64,000 bases of DNA. Origin: Planctomycetota bacterium (lineage in GTDB: Bacteria > Planctomycetota > UBA1135 > GCA-002686595). Below, piece by piece: positions 54,159 to 63,717 of this stretch (the stretch's first letter is position 1; every line of letters starts with the position of its first letter). The notes below the pieces were generated by a model. It was not told the DNA's origin, searched no databases, and saw nothing but the letters and a program-made list of their open reading frames with translations. The stretch is taken from NCBI GenBank assembly GCA_016779225.1, contig JADHNZ010000007.1, positions 1 to 64,000 of the forward strand, read 5' to 3'. Both the position numbers and the translations under genes were made by a program.

Positions 54159-55802
54159 ATGACATCCATGGCCAATCAGCGCACCCTACGGACCGTTCCT
54201 GGCCGCCACCTGGCGGCCGCCGGCCTCCTGGCGGTCGCCGTCGCTTCCTGCGACTACGACCCGGGCCACGCCGACCTCCCCTGGCGCCTTTCCCTCAACA
54301 ACAAGGCCGTCCTGGCGGACGCCGGCCTGAGCGCCTCCGAGGCCCAGGTCACCGGCGCCCTGACGACCCTGTTCGGGACCGCTCAGAACCCCCGGCACCT
54401 CATCACCGGGGACATGTACGACGCCGAGGAGGACCCGAACCTCGCGGGCGACCTGGAGCTCTCCGACGAGCAGCTCGAGGCGATCGTGACGGACAACCGC
54501 GTGAAGCGGTTCCCCGCGCAGCTCGAGCTGATCGCGGCCGGACGCTTCTCCGAGGTCCCCGAGCCGCTCTACGCCCAGGACCTGTGGGCCAAGTGGCAGC
54601 GGGACTTCGCGCCCCTGCACACGGGCACCCCTGGCGAGGAGGGCGCGCCGGCCGTCTTCACCGGCGCTGACGAGGCCTTCCCCGTGGACGACATCTGGGT
54701 CCCCGGCCTGGGTGACGAGGCCACCTGGGGCGAGGCCGCGACCGCGCTCTTCGAGAACTGGTACCCGAGCCTGCGCGAGTCGGCCGAGATGTACCGTGCC
54801 CAGTGCCTGCACTGCCACGGCAACGAGGGCGGCGGCGACGGCCCGACGGCTGAGTTCCTGGAGCCGCGCCCGCGGGACTACCGCCTGGGCAAGTTCAAGT
54901 GGGTTGCCGTCGACAACGGCAAGCGCCCGCGCCGGGACGACCTGGTCAGCATCCTCAAGAACGGCGCCTACTTCACGGCGATGCCGTCCTTCGACCGCTT
55001 CAGTGAGGGCCAGCTGAACGGCCTCGCCGACTATGTCCGCCTGCTCGCCATGCGCGGCGAGACCGAGACCCTGCTGGCGCTCGAGATGACCGGCTCCGAC
55101 ACGGGCGACCTGCCGCTCGACACCGTGCAGACCTCCTACGCGGATGTCTGGGAGGGCTGGCGCGACGCCGAGGAGAACTATGTGGCTGGCGAGGTCGATG
55201 TGCCCCGATGGGACGGGATGAGCGCTGACGAGATGGTGCGCCGCACGGAGCACGGTCGCGAGCTGTTCATGGGCACCACGGCCAACTGCTTCTCCTGCCA
55301 CGGGGCCGACGGCCGCGGGGCCGAGGGGGCCACCCTGCCGATCTCGCTGGCCGAGGTGGTGGAGGCCGACAGCCTCGACGCCGACTACGAGCGTCGCGGC
55401 GGCTACCGCTGGGTCGAGCGCCGCAACGCCAAGGGCGAGGTGGTGAAGGACAAGGCGGACCAGCCGCTGATGGACCTCTACCGCATCAAGCCGGACGACT
55501 GGGGCAACCCGTCCATGCCGCGCAACTTCACCCGGACGATCTTCCGCGGGGGCAGCCGCCCGATCGACATCTTCCGCCGCGTCAAGTACGGCATCGGCGG
55601 GACGATCATGCCGGCCTCCGAGGCCTCGCTCACCGACGACGACCTCTGGGACATCGTCCTCTATGTGAAGCACCTGGCCAACTCGAACGACCTGGCGCGC
55701 GAGTACGAGCGCAAGGCCGCCGCGGCCGCGCGCATGCACGAGGCCGAGCACGGCCACGGCGACCACGCCGAGGACCACGACGCCGAAGAGGCCAGCCACT
55801 GA
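54159..55802 (+). CDS. Di-heme cytochrome c lipoprotein
   Basis: 547 residues, first gene of the oxidase operon. A lipoprotein signal (LLAVAVASCDYD, Cys31 as lipid site) anchors it to the membrane. Two heme-c sites are present: C216-L-H-C-H220 and C377-F-S-C-H381, each in a class-I cytochrome c-like domain; Met in YFTAMPSF and in GGTIMPASE are likely axial ligands. The C-terminus is His/Asp/Glu-rich (HEAEHGHGDHAEDHDAEEASH) and could bind metal. It probably hands electrons to the CuA site of subunit II, which lacks its own heme domain. The fold resembles mono-heme partners of alternative complex III and caa3 oxidases, here doubled. Confidence 0.9.
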   Translation: MTSMANQRTLRTVPGRHLAAAGLLAVAVASCDYDPGHADLPWRLSLNNKAVLADAGLSASEAQVTGALTTLFGTAQNPRHLITGDMYDAEEDPNLAGDLELSDEQLEAIVTDNRVKRFPAQLELIAAGRFSEVPEPLYAQDLWAKWQRDFAPLHTGTPGEEGAPAVFTGADEAFPVDDIWVPGLGDEATWGEAATALFENWYPSLRESAEMYRAQCLHCHGNEGGGDGPTAEFLEPRPRDYRLGKFKWVAVDNGKRPRRDDLVSILKNGAYFTAMPSFDRFSEGQLNGLADYVRLLAMRGETETLLALEMTGSDTGDLPLDTVQTSYADVWEGWRDAEENYVAGEVDVPRWDGMSADEMVRRTEHGRELFMGTTANCFSCHGADGRGAEGATLPISLAEVVEADSLDADYERRGGYRWVERRNAKGEVVKDKADQPLMDLYRIKPDDWGNPSMPRNFTRTIFRGGSRPIDIFRRVKYGIGGTIMPASEASLTDDDLWDIVLYVKHLANSNDLAREYERKAAAAARMHEAEHGHGDHAEDHDAEEASH

Positions 55803-55830
55803 TCCCCGCGATCACGAGAGGAATCCAAAG

Positions 55831-56682
55831 ATGATGCGCCTGCTCACGACGATCATGCTCCTGGCCCTCCTGGTCTTCGGACTGTGGAGCTGGGTCGACT
55901 ACGACTACTGGCTGCTCGGCCCCTCGCCGGCCCACTACACCTGGTGGTGGCCCGAGGAGTTCAGCACCATCGGCCAGGACATCGACAGCCTCTTCTATCT
56001 GATCGCGGTCATGGTCGCGGTGATGTTCGTCATCACCATGGGCGGCCTGGTCCTGTTCACCTGGAAGTACTCGGCCAAGCGCCAGGACAAGGCGGTGTTC
56101 TCTCACGGCTCGCACAAGCTCGAGCTGCTGTGGACCGCGGTGCCCGCTGGCCTGCTGCTCATCATCGCCTTCAGCCAGATGAGCACCTTCGCGGAGATCC
56201 AGTTCGCGAGCGCAACCCAGGACGAGGAGGGCAACGACCTCCCGGTCCACTGCGAGATCTGGGCCTCCCAGTTCGACTGGCGCTTCCGCTACCCCGGCAA
56301 GGACGGGCGCTTCGGAACCAACGATGACTTCGAGAGCCCCTACGAGCTCGTCCTGCCCCTGCAGGAGAACGAGGAGGGCGACGCCAAGAAGCTCGTCTTT
56401 CTGCTGCGCTCCCGCGATGTCCTCCACTCCTTCTTCGTGCCGCACCTGCGCTTCAAGCGGGATGCTGTCCCCGGCATGACGCAGCGCATCTGGCTCGGCA
56501 TCGACGACAAGCAGATGGAGGAGGTCCTCGCGACCCGCGAGGAGAAGAGCTTCGACATCATCTGCGCCGAGCTGTGCGGATGGGGTCACTACAAGATGAG
56601 CGGTCGCGTTCGCGTGCTGCCGCAGGACCAGTACGAGGCGTGGGTGGATGAGATGACCGCCCAGCAGTTCGGCAACTCCTGA
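55831..56682 (+). CDS. coxB: Cytochrome c oxidase subunit II
   Basis: 283 residues. Two membrane segments (about 5-25 and 52-77, with a third hydrophobic stretch 100-114) precede the cupredoxin domain. The CuA ligands are all present: His199 (RDVLHSFFVP), Cys245, Glu247, Cys249, His253 and Met256 (CAELCGWGHYKM). The VHCEIWASQFDWRFRYPG strand is typical. No C-terminal cytochrome c domain is fused. A Shine-Dalgarno (GAGAGG) lies about 9 nt before the ATG. It receives electrons from cytochrome c and passes them to subunit I. Confidence 0.96.
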   Translation: MMRLLTTIMLLALLVFGLWSWVDYDYWLLGPSPAHYTWWWPEEFSTIGQDIDSLFYLIAVMVAVMFVITMGGLVLFTWKYSAKRQDKAVFSHGSHKLELLWTAVPAGLLLIIAFSQMSTFAEIQFASATQDEEGNDLPVHCEIWASQFDWRFRYPGKDGRFGTNDDFESPYELVLPLQENEEGDAKKLVFLLRSRDVLHSFFVPHLRFKRDAVPGMTQRIWLGIDDKQMEEVLATREEKSFDIICAELCGWGHYKMSGRVRVLPQDQYEAWVDEMTAQQFGNS

Positions 56683-56717
56683 CTCCCGCCCCGACCCTCC
56701 ACACCAACGCAACGACC

Positions 56718-58541
56718 ATGGTCGACATCCACGCACCGCACGGCTCCGAGGCGCGCCCCGGAATGGGCGAGCCCGGGACCACCCGCGAGCACCACGATCA
56801 CCACGAGCTCGGCTTCATCCAGAAGTACATCTTCTCGGTGGACCACAAGGTGATCGGCATCCAGTTCATGATCACCGGTCTGATCTTCTTCGCCCTGGGC
56901 GGCCTGTTCGCCATGGCGATCCGGTACCAGCTCGCCTGGCCCTGGGAGAAGATGCCCGTGATCGGCTCCGTGCTCTTCCCGAACACCGGGCAGGCGATCA
57001 CGCCGGAGTTCTACACCATGCTCTTCACGATGCACGGGACGATCATGATCTTCTTCGTGATCATCCCGCTGCTGACCGGAGCGTTCGGGAACTACCTGAT
57101 CCCGCTCATGATCGGCGCGCCGGACATGGCCTTCCCGAAGCTCAACATGTTCGGGTACTGGACCATGATCCCCGCGATCTTCTGCGTGTTCATGGCGTTC
57201 ATCCAGCCGGGCGGCGGACCCGCTGCAGGCTGGACCGCCTACCCGCCGCTGTCCACCGTGACCAGCGCCGCGCCGGGCTCGCTCTCGGCGCAGACCTGGT
57301 GGCTGATGGCCCTCACCTGGGTCGGCGTCAGCTCGATGATGGGCGCGGTCAACTATGTGACCACGATCGTCAAGATGCGCGCGCCGGGGATGACCATGTT
57401 CCGGATGCCGCTGACCATCTGGGCGCTCTTCATCGCCGCCCTGCTGCAGCTCTTCGCCCTGCCCGTGCTGACCGCGGCCAGCGCCATGCAGATCTGCGAC
57501 CGCATGCTCGGGACCGGCTTCTTCACCCCGACCAACCTGGTGGTCAACCAGTTCAACCCCGAGACCGCGGGCGCCGCGGCCGGCGGCCAGCCGCTGCTCT
57601 GGCAGCACCTGTTCTGGTTCTACAGCCACCCGGCCGTCTACATCATGGTCGTGCCGGCCATGGGCCTCGCGTCCGACATCCTCTCGGTGCACGCCCGCAA
57701 GCCCGTCTTCGGCTACAAGCCCATGGTCTACTCCATGGCCTCCATCGCTGGCCTGGGCTTCATCGTGTGGGGCCACCACATGTTCGCCTCGGGCATGAAC
57801 CCGGCCCTGGGCATGACCTTCATGGTCGCGACGATCATGATCGCGCTCCCGAGCGCCATCAAGGTGTTCAACTGGCTCGGCACCCTGTGGGGCTCACGCA
57901 TCCACCTCACCTCGCCGATGCTCTTCGCCCTCGGCTTCGTGGCGATGTTCATCATCGGCGGGCTCTCGGGCATCTGGATGGCCGCGACCCCGGTCGACAT
58001 CTACATCCACGACACCTACATCGTCGTGGCGCACTTCCACTATGTGGTGTTCGGCGGCTCGGTCTTCGCCATCTTCGCGGCCATCTATCACTGGTTCCCG
58101 AAGATGTTCGGCCGGATGATGAACGAGACCCTCGGCAAGCTGCACTTCGTCGGGACCTTCATCTTCACGAACGGCGTCTTCTACATGATGCACCAGCTCG
58201 GCATGGCCGGGCTGATGCGTCGGACCGCCGACCCCTACGACTACGAGACCTACGCGCACCTGCAGCCGCTGAACGAGTTCATCACCATCAGCGCGTTCCT
58301 GCTCTTCGCGTGGCAGATCTTCTTCGTCTGGAACTTCTTCCACTCCATGTTCTGGGGCAAGCGCGTGGGGCGGAACCCCTGGCGCGCGGCCAGCATCGAG
58401 TGGGACACGCCCTCGCCTCCGGGCCACGGCAACTTCGACGCGCCCCTGCGGGTCTACCGCGGGCCCTACGAGTACGCGAGCCCTGAGGTCGAAGAGGACT
58501 TCGTGGCTCAGAGCCGCGACCTGACCGGTAAGTCCGAGTAG
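56718..58541 (+). CDS. coxA: Cytochrome c oxidase subunit I, A2 type
   Basis: 607 residues, twelve membrane segments. Ligands: heme a His106 (TMHGT) and His441, CuB His304, His353 and His354 (WGHHMF), heme a3 His439 (VAHFHYV). Cross-link Tyr308 lies in FWFYSHPAVY. The residue after H304-P is Ala306 where A1-type oxidases have the D-channel Glu (H-P-E-V-Y), and Tyr-Ser precede the His. This Y-S-H-P pattern marks A2-type oxidases such as caa3 of Thermus and Rhodothermus. D-channel entrance Asp136 (GAPDMAFP) is kept. It reduces oxygen to water and pumps protons. Confidence 0.97.
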   Translation: MVDIHAPHGSEARPGMGEPGTTREHHDHHELGFIQKYIFSVDHKVIGIQFMITGLIFFALGGLFAMAIRYQLAWPWEKMPVIGSVLFPNTGQAITPEFYTMLFTMHGTIMIFFVIIPLLTGAFGNYLIPLMIGAPDMAFPKLNMFGYWTMIPAIFCVFMAFIQPGGGPAAGWTAYPPLSTVTSAAPGSLSAQTWWLMALTWVGVSSMMGAVNYVTTIVKMRAPGMTMFRMPLTIWALFIAALLQLFALPVLTAASAMQICDRMLGTGFFTPTNLVVNQFNPETAGAAAGGQPLLWQHLFWFYSHPAVYIMVVPAMGLASDILSVHARKPVFGYKPMVYSMASIAGLGFIVWGHHMFASGMNPALGMTFMVATIMIALPSAIKVFNWLGTLWGSRIHLTSPMLFALGFVAMFIIGGLSGIWMAATPVDIYIHDTYIVVAHFHYVVFGGSVFAIFAAIYHWFPKMFGRMMNETLGKLHFVGTFIFTNGVFYMMHQLGMAGLMRRTADPYDYETYAHLQPLNEFITISAFLLFAWQIFFVWNFFHSMFWGKRVGRNPWRAASIEWDTPSPPGHGNFDAPLRVYRGPYEYASPEVEEDFVAQSRDLTGKSE

Positions 58542-58551
58542 TCGAGTCTCC

Positions 58552-59703
58552 TTGCATCACGGTGAGCCTGACCTCCCGGGGGTGCGCCTTGCGGCGCGCC
58601 TGCTCGTGGCGACCACCCTCCTGCTCCTCGGAGTAGGGGGGCTCGTCACGACATACCGGGTTGGGATGGCCGTGCACGACTGGCCGACCACCTTCGGGTC
58701 GACCATGTTCGCCTACCCGCTGGACGAGATGCTCCGCAGCTGGGGGGTGACCCTCGAGCACGGTCACCGCATGCTCGGCAGCGTCGTGGGCCTGCTGACC
58801 CTGGCTCTCCTCGTGGTCGCTGCTCGGGCCGGCGGCCGTGGCGCGCTCACGGCCGTGCTGCTGGGGCTCGCCCTCGAGGTCGTTGCTGTGCTCCTCCTCG
58901 CGGGCCAGCGCGCGAGCAGCACGGGCGAGGTCCTCATCGACTGGTCGCGGCCGGCCCTGCCCTTCGCCGGGGCGGTCGTGGCGCTCGTCGCCAGCGCCTT
59001 CGTCGGGCAGCGCCGCCGCCTGCGTGCTCTGACCGTGGTCGGGCACCTGGCCGTCGTGGGGCAGGGCCTTCTGGGCGGCACGCGCGTCCTCGAGAACAGC
59101 ACCCACCTGGCCTTCCTCCACGGGAGCCTCGCCCAGGTCGTGTTCACCGTGCTCGCCGTGACGGCGACCGTGGTCGGCAGCGCCCGCGCCGAGGCCCGCC
59201 ATGGGGGGGGCACCCCCCAGCGGGGTCCGGTCGTGCTCGCCGCCCTCGCCGCCGTGCTCGTGCTGGGCCAGTCCACCCTGGGCGCCTGGACTCGTCACAC
59301 CGGCGGTCACCTGCCGCTTGGCCTGCACGGCATGAACGCTCTGGTGGTCCTCGGCGTGGTCCTGCTGCTCGTGAGCCGCCTCGGCGCCTTCGAGCGCGCC
59401 ACGGGATCGCCCGTGGTGGGGCGCGTCCGCCGCGGCCTCCTGCACCTGGTGGCCGCCCAGTTCGTCCTTGGCGTCGGCGTCCTCGTCGTGATCCTCGCCG
59501 TGGCGGGGGGCTTCGAGGGCCCGGTCACCGTCACCGAGGCCGTCACCTCGACCCTGCATGTGCTGCTCGGCGCGCTGCTTGCCGGCTCTTGCGCCCGTGC
59601 GGCCGTCGTGCTCGCGGCCGTGGCCCCGGCGGGTGCGCGGGTGCAGGCAGGCAAGGTCTCTCAAGCTCCTGAGGCGGCTCTCTCCGCGGGAGGGGTCGCG
59701 TGA
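58552..59703 (+). CDS. ctaA: Heme A synthase (CtaA/Cox15 family)
   Basis: 383 residues with about eight membrane segments; oxidises the C8 methyl of heme O to make heme A. Conserved His appear in EHGHRMLGSVVGL, NSTHLAFLHGSLAQ and GHLPLGLHGMNALV, with VHDWPTTFG after the first segment. TTG 58552 lies 10 nt after the coxA stop; an in-frame GTG at 58582 is an alternative start. It overlaps ctaB by 4 nt (GTGA). Its place in the operon ties heme A supply to oxidase expression. Confidence 0.92.
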   Translation: MHHGEPDLPGVRLAARLLVATTLLLLGVGGLVTTYRVGMAVHDWPTTFGSTMFAYPLDEMLRSWGVTLEHGHRMLGSVVGLLTLALLVVAARAGGRGALTAVLLGLALEVVAVLLLAGQRASSTGEVLIDWSRPALPFAGAVVALVASAFVGQRRRLRALTVVGHLAVVGQGLLGGTRVLENSTHLAFLHGSLAQVVFTVLAVTATVVGSARAEARHGGGTPQRGPVVLAALAAVLVLGQSTLGAWTRHTGGHLPLGLHGMNALVVLGVVLLLVSRLGAFERATGSPVVGRVRRGLLHLVAAQFVLGVGVLVVILAVAGGFEGPVTVTEAVTSTLHVLLGALLAGSCARAAVVLAAVAPAGARVQAGKVSQAPEAALSAGGVA

Positions 59704-60608
59704 CCCGGCCCGTGGCGACCTCCCTCAGGGCCAACGCCCAGGGCTCCCTCCTGGCGCCCTGGCTGGAGCTGCTCCGGCCGCGGGTTGCCAGCATGGTGAC
59801 CCTCATGGCGCTGCTCGGCGCGGCGACGGCGCCGGGCTCGACCCTCCTGCGCGCGCTTGAGGCTGCCGTCCTCATCACCCTGGTCACGGGCTGCGCCAGC
59901 GTCCTGAACCAGGTGCTGGAGCGTGAGACCGACGCACTGATGCCGCGCACGGCTGGCCGCCCTCTCGTCACAGGACGCGTGGGCGTGGTGGGGGCCCTCG
60001 TGTTCGCGACGCTGCTCGGAGCCGGCGGCGCCGCCGGGCTCGCCCTGCGCTTCAACCTGCTCAGTGCGTTCCTCTCGCTGGCGACCCTGCTGGTCTATGT
60101 GGCGCTGTACACGCCGCTCAAGCGCGTGAGCACCTCGAACACCGTGGTCGGAGCCGTCCCCGGGGCAGCCCCGCCGCTCCTGGGCTACGCGGCGCTGGCG
60201 GGGGATGTCGGGCCGTGGGCCTGGTGCATGTTCGCGGTGATCTTCGCCTGGCAGTTCCCGCACTTCTTCGCCATCGCCTGGCTGTACCGCGACGACTACC
60301 GCGCCGCGGGCCACCGCATGCTGCCCTGCGTCGAGGACGCCGAGGGCCTGGCGGGCCGGCACAGCGTGCTCTACGCCCTGGCCCTGATCCCCGTGGCCCT
60401 GCTGCCCCTGACCGCCGGCCTCGCGGGCCCGTTCTACGGGGTTGGCGCGGGGCTGCTCTCCGTCGCCTACCTGGCGGCCTCGGTCGCCTTCGCACGCCGT
60501 GAGGACCGGCCCCGCGCGCGGGCGCTGGTCGTCACGTCCCTGTTCTACCTGCCCCTGTGGGCGGGCCTCATCCTGACTGACTCCCTCGTGTCCGCATCCC
60601 TCCGATGA
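59700..60608 (+). CDS. ctaB: Heme O synthase (protoheme IX farnesyltransferase)
   Basis: 302 residues with about nine membrane segments. This UbiA-family prenyltransferase adds farnesyl to heme B. The substrate-binding motif is LNQVLERETDALMPRTAGRPL (N-x3-E/D-x2-x-D), the second conserved stretch is YTPLKRVSTSNTVVGAVPGAAPPLLGY, and QFPHFFAIAWLYRDDYRAAGHRMLP follows. GTG 59700 overlaps ctaA; the end overlaps coxC (ATGA 60605-60608). Confidence 0.95.
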   Translation: MTRPVATSLRANAQGSLLAPWLELLRPRVASMVTLMALLGAATAPGSTLLRALEAAVLITLVTGCASVLNQVLERETDALMPRTAGRPLVTGRVGVVGALVFATLLGAGGAAGLALRFNLLSAFLSLATLLVYVALYTPLKRVSTSNTVVGAVPGAAPPLLGYAALAGDVGPWAWCMFAVIFAWQFPHFFAIAWLYRDDYRAAGHRMLPCVEDAEGLAGRHSVLYALALIPVALLPLTAGLAGPFYGVGAGLLSVAYLAASVAFARREDRPRARALVVTSLFYLPLWAGLILTDSLVSASLR

Positions 60609-61234
60609 CCGACGCCATTCCCGCCTACGACGCCGCGGTGGATGCTCCCAAGCACCACCACCCCGTCTACGACTACGACTCGGGCCCTCCCGTCGACCGC
60701 GGCAAGTTCGCGATCTGGGTGTTCCTCGGCACCGAGATCATGTTCTTCACCGGTCTCATCGGGACCTACATCGTTCTGCGCGCCGGCTCGCCCAGCTGGC
60801 CGAACCCGGCCGCGCGCCTCGCGGTGGACATCACGGCGTTCAACACCTTCGTGCTGATCTGCTCGTCCGCGACCGTGGTGGCTGGCCTGTTCGCGATCCA
60901 GAACGACGACCGCAGGAAGTTCAACCTGTGGTGGGGTCTCTCGATCCTGTTTGGCGCGTTCTTCGTGGGGGTCCAGGTCTATGAGTACTGGCACCTGTTC
61001 GCCCACGACATGACTCCGAACCAGGACCTGTTCTGGTCGACCTTCTATGTCATGACGGGCTTCCACGGGGCCCACGTGATCATCGGAGTCATCTGGCTCG
61101 CGGCGGTCTATGTCGCGGCCCTGCGCGGGAAGTACTCGTCCAAGGACTTCGTGGGCCTCGAGCTCGCGGGCCTGTACTGGCACTTCGTGGACCTCGTCTG
61201 GGTCCTCCTGTTTACCCTCGTCTACCTCATGTGA
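60605..61234 (+). CDS. coxC: Cytochrome c oxidase subunit III
   Basis: 209 residues with five membrane segments, the short form of subunit III that lacks the first two helices. Signatures: FAIWVFLGTEIMFFTGLIGTY, GFHGAHVIIGVIWL and LYWHFVDLVWVLLFTLVY. The N-terminus has a His patch (KHHHPVYDYD). Subunit III stabilises subunit I and supports proton uptake. Translationally coupled to ctaB. Confidence 0.96.
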   Translation: MTDAIPAYDAAVDAPKHHHPVYDYDSGPPVDRGKFAIWVFLGTEIMFFTGLIGTYIVLRAGSPSWPNPAARLAVDITAFNTFVLICSSATVVAGLFAIQNDDRRKFNLWWGLSILFGAFFVGVQVYEYWHLFAHDMTPNQDLFWSTFYVMTGFHGAHVIIGVIWLAAVYVAALRGKYSSKDFVGLELAGLYWHFVDLVWVLLFTLVYLM

Positions 61235-61251
61235 TCCTGGAGGAGACCGCC

Positions 61252-61770
61252 ATGTCCGACGAACATCCCCCTCAGTTCAGCGTCAAGAAGCTCTGGATCC
61301 TCCTCCTGGCCCTCACGGCCGCGGAGGTTGCCTATGGCGAGCTTGGGAACCGCACCTTCTACGAGAACAAGCTGCTCCTCTGGGGTGGCCTCCTCTCCTT
61401 CGCCTATGTGAAGGGCTACTACATCTTCCAGTACTTCATGCACATGAAGTACGAGGGCGCGATCGTGAAGGGCAACGTGTGGTTCACGCTGCCCCTGGTG
61501 GCCTACCTGATGATCATGCTCTGGCCTGACACCGCGGCGAACGACAAGCTGAACTACGGCATCGGGCGGCAGCTCGACCCGCAGGACGGCGTCGTCAAGG
61601 TGCACCTGGACCAGGCCGACTCCTCGCGGAACATCTTCAACCACGGCCACAAGGACGGCACCCGTCCCGCGCCGGCGATGCCCGCGAGCGAGTACGCCTA
61701 CCTCTACACCGCCGACCCCGAGCTCGTGCAGCCCGAGGCCCCGGCGGAGGACCACGGCTCCGGCCACTGA
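61252..61770 (+). CDS. Cytochrome c oxidase subunit IV (prokaryotic type)
   Basis: 172 residues. Three membrane segments in the first 90 residues (VKKLWILLLALTAAEVAYGEL, LLLWGGLLSFAYVKGYYIFQYFMHMKYE, NVWFTLPLVAYLMIMLW) match the caa3-type subunit IV family; the Y-x3-Q-x2-M-H-M-K-Y-E loop is characteristic. A soluble tail of 75 residues (GIGRQLDPQDG to DHGSGH) is unusually long and ends in His/Asp/Glu. ATG 61252 has a perfect GGAGGAG 7 nt before it, better than the GTG at 61231. Confidence 0.9.
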   Translation: MSDEHPPQFSVKKLWILLLALTAAEVAYGELGNRTFYENKLLLWGGLLSFAYVKGYYIFQYFMHMKYEGAIVKGNVWFTLPLVAYLMIMLWPDTAANDKLNYGIGRQLDPQDGVVKVHLDQADSSRNIFNHGHKDGTRPAPAMPASEYAYLYTADPELVQPEAPAEDHGSGH

Positions 61771-61811: not shown

Positions 61812-62891
61812 GTGAAGCTGACCGCGAGCATCCTGGGCGCCGTACTCCTCGCGGGGGCGGCGCCCTCGTCGTGGGCCGCACTGCCCCCTGCCCAGGGAGT
61901 TGCCTCGCCCCCGCCTGGCTCGGAGGTCCGCTTCAGCGAGGTCCCCGACTTCGCCTTCACCGAGCGCAGCGGAGCGACCGTCACGAGGGCCGACCTGCTG
62001 GGCTCGCCCTGGATCGCGGTCCCATTCTATGCCCGCTGTCTGGGGCCTTGCCCGTCCCTCACGGGCGACCTCCGGGCCCGGGTCTACGAGGAGCTGCGGG
62101 GTTCGGATGTGCGCCTGGTGTCCTTCTCCGTGGACCCGCGCTTCGACTCGCCGGAGGTGCTCGAGGAGTGGGCCAGCCGCTTCGAGGTTGAGGATGACCG
62201 CTGGCTGTTCCTCACCGGGGACCTGGGGGAGATGGAGGCCTTTGTGCGCGAGGGGCTCAAGGTGGCTCTCGCGCGGGATGAGACCCTGGAACCCGGGCTC
62301 GCCGTGACCCATTCCACAAGGCTGCCGGTGATCGACCCCGAGGGACGCATCGCAGGCTGGTACGAGTGCGCGGCGGACGGCCTCGAGCGCGCCGAGCTGG
62401 AGTCGAACATGGACCTCTTGACCAATGTCGCCCTCGCCCTGTCGACGGCCCCCCAGCCCTCGAACCTGCCGGCCATCAACGCGGCCCTGAACGGCCTCGC
62501 CACCGTCCTGCTCGTGCTCGGCTACCGGGCGATCAAGCGCGGGGACCGCGAGCGGCACGCCGCGCTGATGAAGACGGCCTTCGCGACGAGCGCGGCCTTC
62601 CTGGCCTGCTACCTGTACTACCACACGGCCGTCCTGCCCCTTCAGGGAGGGCCCACGCAGTTCCATGGCGGCGGCGCGGCGAAGGTGGGCTACCTGACCC
62701 TCCTCGCGAGCCATGTGATCCTCGCGGCCGTCAACCTGCCCATGATCCTGCGCACGCTGCTCCTGGCGCGTCGCGAGGACTGGGAGCGCCACCGGCGCTG
62801 GGCGCGCTGGACCTTCCCGATCTGGCTCTATGTGAGCGTCACGGGGGTGGTGGTCTATGTGGTCCTGTACCATCTGAACCCAGCGCCATGA
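61812..62891 (+). CDS. SCO-type copper chaperone fused to a DUF420 (CtaM-like) membrane domain
   Basis: 359 residues from GTG 61812. After a signal segment (1-23), residues 38-195 form a thioredoxin-like SCO domain: C76-L-G-P-C80 (the C-x3-C copper site), SFSVDPRFDSPEVL and the copper His167 (VTHSTRLPVIDPEGR). Residues 215-355 are a DUF420 domain with four membrane segments and conserved His (FLACYLYYH, QFHGGG, LASHVILAAVNLP). DUF420 in Bacillus is CtaM (YozB), needed for oxidase maturation. The fusion joins two assembly factors, likely for copper delivery. It overlaps the next gene by 4 nt (ATGA). Confidence 0.93.
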   Translation: MKLTASILGAVLLAGAAPSSWAALPPAQGVASPPPGSEVRFSEVPDFAFTERSGATVTRADLLGSPWIAVPFYARCLGPCPSLTGDLRARVYEELRGSDVRLVSFSVDPRFDSPEVLEEWASRFEVEDDRWLFLTGDLGEMEAFVREGLKVALARDETLEPGLAVTHSTRLPVIDPEGRIAGWYECAADGLERAELESNMDLLTNVALALSTAPQPSNLPAINAALNGLATVLLVLGYRAIKRGDRERHAALMKTAFATSAAFLACYLYYHTAVLPLQGGPTQFHGGGAAKVGYLTLLASHVILAAVNLPMILRTLLLARREDWERHRRWARWTFPIWLYVSVTGVVVYVVLYHLNPAP

Positions 62892-63196
62892 GGCTCCTCC
62901 TCCGCACCGCACTCCCGGCCGTCCTGCTGCTGGCCTGGGCGCCGCTCGGCTTCACCTGAGACTCCTGCAAGGAGGCTCTGGCCGCCGAGGGAGGGTCCCT
63001 CGGAGAAGGATTCACCTACAGCATCTACTTCATGCTGACCGTGGTGCTGTTCGTGGTGCCCGCCGTGTTCGGCCTGTTGCTCTGGAACAGCTTCCGCTCG
63101 AACCGCGTGCGCGCGAGCAAGGGCGCAGGCTACGAGCCCCCGGCGGGAGTGGAGCGCTGGGTCGACGAGCCCGGCTCGGGCTCCGGCGACGCGTGA
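62888..63196 (+). CDS. Candidate selenoprotein: small membrane protein with in-frame TGA in a U-x-x-C motif
   Basis: Read straight through, this gene gives 102 residues with one in-frame TGA at codon 24 (62957-62959). The N-terminus (MRLLLRTALPAVLLLAWAPLGFT) is a signal segment. Then comes the TGA, followed by D-S-C-K-E-A-L-A, a short loop, one membrane segment (about 44-66, TYSIYFMLTVVLFVVPAVFGLLLW) and a basic, Gly-rich tail. TGA takes the place of the first Cys of a C-x-x-C motif; I recall small oxidase-linked proteins with C-P-x-C-K-E-A-L at this position after a signal peptide. Both ends overlap neighbours by 4 nt (ATGA with SCO, GTGA with ogt), as expected for one intact frame. A perfect 8-bp hairpin begins 25 nt after the TGA. 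Alternatives are a nonsense mutation or base error (TGC to TGA) or separate 5' and 3' products. Confidence 0.7.
62962..62974 (+). other. Small hairpin right after the in-frame TGA
   Basis: CTCCT pairs with AGGAG (5 bp) around GCA, 2 nt after the TGA. It could form the lower part of a recoding structure or compete with the larger hairpin downstream. Confidence 0.4.
62985..63003 (+). promoter_or_regulatory. Candidate bacterial SECIS-like hairpin
   Basis: CCGAGGGA pairs perfectly with TCCCTCGG (8 bp) around a GGG loop (or 7 bp with AGGGT). The loop starts 33 nt after the TGA. As I recall it, the bacterial SECIS consensus has a small apical loop with G in the first two positions, 16-37 nt after UGA; this fits. 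No bulged U, as in E. coli fdhF, is present. Confidence 0.5.
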
Positions 63197-63717
63197 CGAC
63201 GACGCTCCTCCGGCGCCGCGTGCGCACCCGCCTGGGCGTGGTCGAGCTGGTGGGAGGGGAGCAGGGGCTGGCCTGGGTGCAGCTTCCACTCGCGGGCTCC
63301 GGCGCCACCCGCGAGGCGCACCTGGCGCGCTGGTTCGGCGGGCCGAGGATCCGCGACGACCGCGCGGTGCTCCAGGATGCGGTGGCCGAGCTCGAGGCCT
63401 GGGACGCGGGGGACTTCGCGCCAAGGGAGACTCAGCTCGACCTACGCGGGACTCCCTTCCAGCTCGACTGCTGGCGCGCCCTCCGCAGGGTTCCCGCCGG
63501 CAGCACCGTGACCTACGGCGGGCTCGCCGCGCGCGCGGGTCGGCCGCGCGCCACCCGCGCGGTCGGCAGTGCCATGCGCTGCAATCCCGTGCCTCTCCTG
63601 GTGCCCTGCCATCGGGTGCTCGCGGCGGTCGGGCTGGGCGGGTTCGCCGGCGGAGCCGAGGGCGCGCTGGACCTCAAGTCCGTGATGCTGCGCCATGAGG
63701 GCGCGCTCCTCCGCTGA
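63193..63717 (+). CDS. ogt: Methylated-DNA--[protein]-cysteine S-methyltransferase
   Basis: 174 residues. Removes methyl from O6-methylguanine by transfer to its own Cys. The C-terminal DNA-binding domain is complete: GTPFQLDCWRALRRVPAGSTVTYGGLAARAGRPRATRAVGSAMRCNPVPLLVPCHRVLA with the active-site motif V-P-C-H-R-V, then GLGGFAGGAEGALDLKSVMLRHEG. The N-terminal domain is short and degenerate, as in Ogt/AGT proteins without the Ada regulatory part. GTG 63193 overlaps the stop of the candidate selenoprotein gene, so it depends on translation through that gene's TGA. A DNA repair gene at the end of an oxidase operon is unusual. Confidence 0.93.
   Translation: MTTTLLRRRVRTRLGVVELVGGEQGLAWVQLPLAGSGATREAHLARWFGGPRIRDDRAVLQDAVAELEAWDAGDFAPRETQLDLRGTPFQLDCWRALRRVPAGSTVTYGGLAARAGRPRATRAVGSAMRCNPVPLLVPCHRVLAAVGLGGFAGGAEGALDLKSVMLRHEGALLR

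Follow-up and report, generated by a model that had tools for sequence, protein, structure and literature searches.

A small membrane protein encoded with cytochrome c oxidase genes in planctomycetes is almost certainly a selenoprotein

An in-frame TGA behind the cytochrome c oxidase genes

In the window (the whole stretch of 64,000 nucleotides that was analysed, in which all positions are numbered), a small gene in a cytochrome c oxidase operon carries TGA at codon 24. The DNA around it reads ATG ... GGC TTC ACC TGA GAC TCC TGC AAG GAG ..., translated as ...GFT-U-DSCKEALAAEGGSLGEGFTYSIYFML... The question was whether this TGA closes a short peptide or is read as selenocysteine (Sec) within a longer protein. 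An earlier note on this DNA had reported that the same frame goes on for 78 codons past the TGA, and our re-reading agreed, with the frame ending at the TGA of 63194-63196. The note had also described 4-nt overlaps at both ends of the gene and at four other junctions of the operon. The two ends were as described, with ATGA shared with the DUF420 gene (62888-62891) and GTGA shared with ogt (63193-63196). However, three further overlaps, not four, were verified within the operon, at 59700, 60605, and 61231. The features are listed in Table 1.

Table 1. Features of the oxidase operon and of the gene with the in-frame TGA
Feature	Position	Strand	Basis
Upstream cox operon: diheme cytochrome c, CoxII (CuA motif CAELCGWGHYKM), CoxI, CtaA-like, CtaB, CoxIII, CoxIV	54159..61770	+	Pfam, CuA motif
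SCO1/SenC-DUF420 fusion; SCO CxxxC and His present; 4-nt overlap with the predicted selenoprotein gene	61812..62891	+	Pfam PF02630, PF04238; motifs
Predicted selenoprotein gene (product of 102 residues): signal or TM segment, then the UxxC motif, another TM helix, and a charged C-terminal tail that ends around a conserved R-W	62888..63196	+	
In-frame TGA, predicted to encode selenocysteine as residue 24, the U of U-D-S-C	62957..62959	+	TGA in 59 of 94 distinct genes; 30 others have TGC/TGT here
Decayed relic at the place where the family usually has its SECIS, GGAGGC-UCUG-GCCGCC, without GGUC	62971..62986	+	Compared with 51 relatives from other genera
Proposed SECIS hairpin of the genus, CCGAGGGA-GGG-UCCCUCGG; loop 62993-62995, 33 nt past the UGA	62985..63003	+	Conserved in 7/7 genomes
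ogt, O6-methylguanine-DNA methyltransferase; 4-nt overlap	63193..63717	+	PF01035

The GC content of the region was about 69%, and 78 codons were open in 44% of arbitrary frames of the last 10 kb. This meant that the open frame alone was weak evidence. The frame stood above chance because both the TGA and the protein beyond it were conserved in 58 other distinct genes. Relatives of the protein read through the TGA were found in 18 of 40 near genomes; the aligned codon was TGA in 16 of them and TGC in two. An alignment-based search gave a copy in 50 of 154 genomes of the order, and TGA was present in 45 of these 50 after the codons were checked. The same kind of search, run on genomes sampled evenly across the phylum, gave a copy in 88 of 392. 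Many genomes of the order had no recognisable copy, which indicated that this small membrane protein was not universally needed. A locus search with a narrower alignment returned 15 loci; their records were titled either Planctomycetota or unspecified bacterium, and 0 of 15 were assigned to another phylum.

The codon at the motif was read from the fetched loci. Phylum-wide, 94 distinct genes were obtained, comprising 59 with UxxC (TGA), 30 with CxxC (TGC or TGT), four with CxxU, and one aberrant form. The CxxU genes had TGA at the second motif position and came from other planctomycete families. The minimum number of changes between Sec and Cys was about nine on a weakly resolved tree; the resolution of the DUF420 tree was too poor to date them, and the minimum count alone was used. 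The aberrant gene, L135 (G342:C58, minus strand), read QSAK-TGA-TGA-EGAL, with two adjacent TGAs and Ser for the first Cys, and was followed by a strong hairpin with a GGC loop 18 nt past the second TGA. It may represent a UU motif, or one Sec together with an error, and is unexplained.

Within the genus of the window, TGA was kept in 7 of 7 genomes, and dN was lower than dS downstream of it in 21 of 21 pairs. The residues directly past the TGA were conserved, and no start codon was found there. These results bear on the reading given by the standard annotation, in which the UGA is a real stop that ends a 23-residue leader peptide or marks a decaying gene, the rest being untranslated or restarted. 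The high frequency of frames open by chance in GC-rich DNA also fits such a stop. However, it is very improbable given a TGA common to 59 genes where 30 others have Cys, the purifying selection and the conserved residues past the TGA without a start codon, and a SECIS element that moves along with the UGA, as described below. A sequencing error, a recent mutation, and a pseudogene were rejected from the TGA of the 59 genes and of all seven genomes of the genus, together with the purifying selection. The earlier note had proposed a search for homologs as a check. Sec would be favoured by relatives with Cys or TGA at this position, and disfavoured by relatives without Cys or by close strains pointing to a base error or recent mutation. 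The many TGA relatives and the 30 Cys relatives aligned at the TGA were of the favouring kind, and neither objection held.

Selenocysteine machinery and the hairpin downstream of the UGA

The same note had named the genes for Sec insertion as a further check, and selA, selB, selC (tRNA-Sec), and selD were all found in the genome of the window. The tRNA-Sec scored 72.8 bits against a cut-off of 47, and ARAGORN gave its anticodon as TCA. In the phylum sample, SelA scored above its cut-off in 29 of the 32 genomes with a TGA form, compared to 13 of the 42 with the Cys form (Fisher p = 2.5e-7). The three TGA-bearing genomes without SelA were incomplete (67-79%), and SelB was found in one of them. 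Genomes with a TGA form thus nearly always had the machinery for Sec as well. A reassignment of UGA to another amino acid in this lineage, for example Trp or Gly, was also considered, since such changes occur in other bacteria. It is extremely improbable here. The gene itself and the neighbouring DUF420 gene both terminate in TGA, the aligned residue in relatives was Cys and never Trp or Gly, and the genome has a tRNA-Sec with the anticodon TCA. The selD of the same genome (locus L081, G000 contig C76:4503-5450(-)) had an in-frame TGA of its own (CAG-U-AAK), then a strong hairpin with a GUC loop 33 nt downstream. From this arrangement, selD is itself a predicted selenoprotein gene.

The folding energy of the 57 nt past the UGA was a weak discriminator because GC-rich sequence folds anyway, and a test of loop and stem at fixed positions was used instead. 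A GGUC loop was found at a spacing of exactly 17 nt from the UGA, its four bases starting at nt 18, in 49 of 51 TGA genes outside the genus of the window, whereas 1 of 33 TGC/TGT genes had it at that position. The stem flanking GGUC was mostly 6-7 bp in the TGA genes, compared to at most 3 consecutive pairs in the TGC/TGT genes (n = 33). The stem differed in sequence between genes, with GGAGGC/GCCUCC, GGAAGC/GCUUCC, GGCGGC/GCCGCC, GGACGU/ACGUCC, CGAGGC/GCCUCG, and others. In the count of stem pairs, 91.8% of the cells were paired. Both sides had changed in 19 cells, against 3.8 expected in shuffles (0/500), and the covariation score was 0.254 at the stem register and at most 0.118 in slid registers. 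In the CxxU genes, a hairpin lay about 18-20 nt past the UGA of the second motif position; it was most distinct in L119, L145, and L136 and least so in L147. This similar spacing from a shifted UGA indicated that the hairpin follows the UGA. An Rfam search gave no RNA family at the site.

The hairpin also left a mark on the protein. Codon +7 was GTC in 50 of 51 TGA genes outside the genus, compared to 6 of 29 Cys genes. Codons +6 to +8 of these Sec forms almost always encoded A-V-A (GCG GTC GCC) because the same bases form the loop and stem of the SECIS, whereas the Cys forms and the genus of the window were free of this constraint. The SECIS signal thus appears to shape the protein sequence in TGA genes.

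In E. coli, the SECIS of fdhF has a GGUC apical loop about 18 nt past the UGA. The 49 relatives resembled it in loop and spacing, with a different stem sequence, whereas the genus of the window has a hairpin farther downstream instead. At the usual loop position, this genus had TCTG or ATTA/ATTG, residue +7 was Leu, and the old stem was broken. The downstream hairpin has 8 bp. All seven genomes share its core, GAGGG/CCCUC, and one pair beside the core varied (C-G in four genomes, U-A in one genome, C-A in two genomes). Its loop spacing was the same as that of the selD hairpin. In the window, it was no more stable than shuffled sequence (z = 0.01). On account of its conservation in the seven genomes with one covarying pair, it is likely the SECIS of the genus, although this is less securely shown than the family element. 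As the best explanation, UGA codon 24 would be read as selenocysteine by the SelB/tRNA-Sec system, with the hairpin just downstream directing it. We consider this reading highly probable from the comparison of sequences.

Gene order, topology, and a possible role in oxidase assembly

The gene adjoined DUF420 in almost all loci, for Sec and Cys forms alike, and SCO and cox genes were usually on the same strand. The downstream neighbour was ogt throughout the genus and in much of the family, though this order did not extend to the whole phylum. Taking together the interchange of Sec and Cys, the covarying SECIS of the family, the Sec machinery, and the fixed place in the cox operon, we regard the small membrane protein with UGA at codon 24 as almost certainly a selenoprotein.

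The structure model was of low confidence (pLDDT 71, pTM 0.40) and had helices at 2-17, 25-33, and 38-78. The first is N-terminal and hydrophobic, the second is short and contains the motif, and the third is long. With helices only, this low-confidence model contained no thioredoxin-like fold, and a fold search of the PDB with it gave no match. Residues like those of signal peptidase sites preceded the motif in many members, as A-x-A before Cys and G/A-x-T/A/G before Sec. Cleavage at such a site could place Sec at, or close to, the N-terminus of the mature protein, on the side of SCO and CuA. The first hydrophobic segment would be a signal peptide or an anchor. The U-x-x-C would then lie at or adjoining the mature N-terminus on the outer membrane face, held there by the second helix, with the tail inside. 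As a selenol/thiol partner, the protein could maintain the CxxxC of SCO, the CuA cysteines of CoxII, or both in the reduced state, or could hand Cu(I) on to them, during assembly of the oxidase. With Sec, such a site might react faster, or might better withstand irreversible oxidation, beside an oxygen-consuming copper enzyme.

The idea that the protein works with SCO-DUF420 at a copper or thiol-reducing site had been put forward in the earlier note, and what points to it is the conserved gene order and the predicted topology. From these two, a membrane-anchored selenol/thiol partner of SCO in CuA assembly is the leading, though tentative, candidate role. The known CuA assembly factors SCO1/SenC, TlpA, and COA6 handle copper or reduce the cysteines of CuA and SCO. 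They share with the protein described here thiol pairs that face the periplasm or intermembrane space. They differ in having no sequence similarity to it, and here the motif is short and membrane-anchored in a model without a thioredoxin-like domain.

The main rival to the role in CuA assembly is that of a small accessory subunit, either in the oxidase or in a DUF420/CtaA-like heme-handling complex. In that case the protein would still be a selenoprotein, in which UxxC serves as a metal site or as a structural selenosulfide bond. Oxidases commonly have small membrane proteins as subunits, the gene keeps its place in the operon, and the CxxC and CxxU forms of the family fit a metal site. However, in most loci the gene follows DUF420/SCO and not the subunit genes, and purely structural Sec sites are generally rare, so we consider an accessory subunit possible but rather doubtful. 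For the assembly role, a bolder version was also formulated. It would be a phylum-wide, oxidase-building selenoprotein with Sec N-terminal or adjacent to the N-terminus after cleavage, serving as a selenolate ligand of Cu(I) or as a reductant of SCO/CuA. Sec could occupy either position of the CxxC, and the SECIS would re-evolve elsewhere each time. In this full form, the proposal is unlikely.

Relation to known selenoproteins and meaning of the family

Pfam and NCBIfam gave no family at a meaningful score for Sec or Cys forms, and a sequence search of the PDB gave no relatives. None of the 119 prokaryotic selenoprotein families and subfamilies in a 2026 inventory was like it by its listed description (PMC13188914, Table 1). 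The known bacterial UxxC and CxxU selenoproteins in that inventory likewise have UGA-encoded Sec for one Cys of a CxxC, Cys homologs, and a SECIS just downstream, but none is listed as a membrane protein of about 100 residues from a cytochrome c oxidase operon. Planctomycetes of Porphyra use Sec; the main text of that study names FdhA and FmdB and no oxidase-operon protein (PMC4807772). In the openly searchable main text of papers joining planctomycetes and selenoproteins, none like it was named, and selenium tied to cytochrome c oxidase biogenesis was not found in the open main texts searched. These results suggested an apparently undescribed selenoprotein family.

The family is abundant in one phylum, Planctomycetota, and escapes standard annotation, which cuts the gene at residue 23. 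Through this family, selenium would be linked to cytochrome c oxidase biogenesis. The repeated changes between Sec and Cys (at least about nine), the occurrence of Sec at one or the other motif position, and the shifting place of the SECIS may make the family a natural experiment on the gain and loss of Sec and on how an RNA signal constrains protein sequence.
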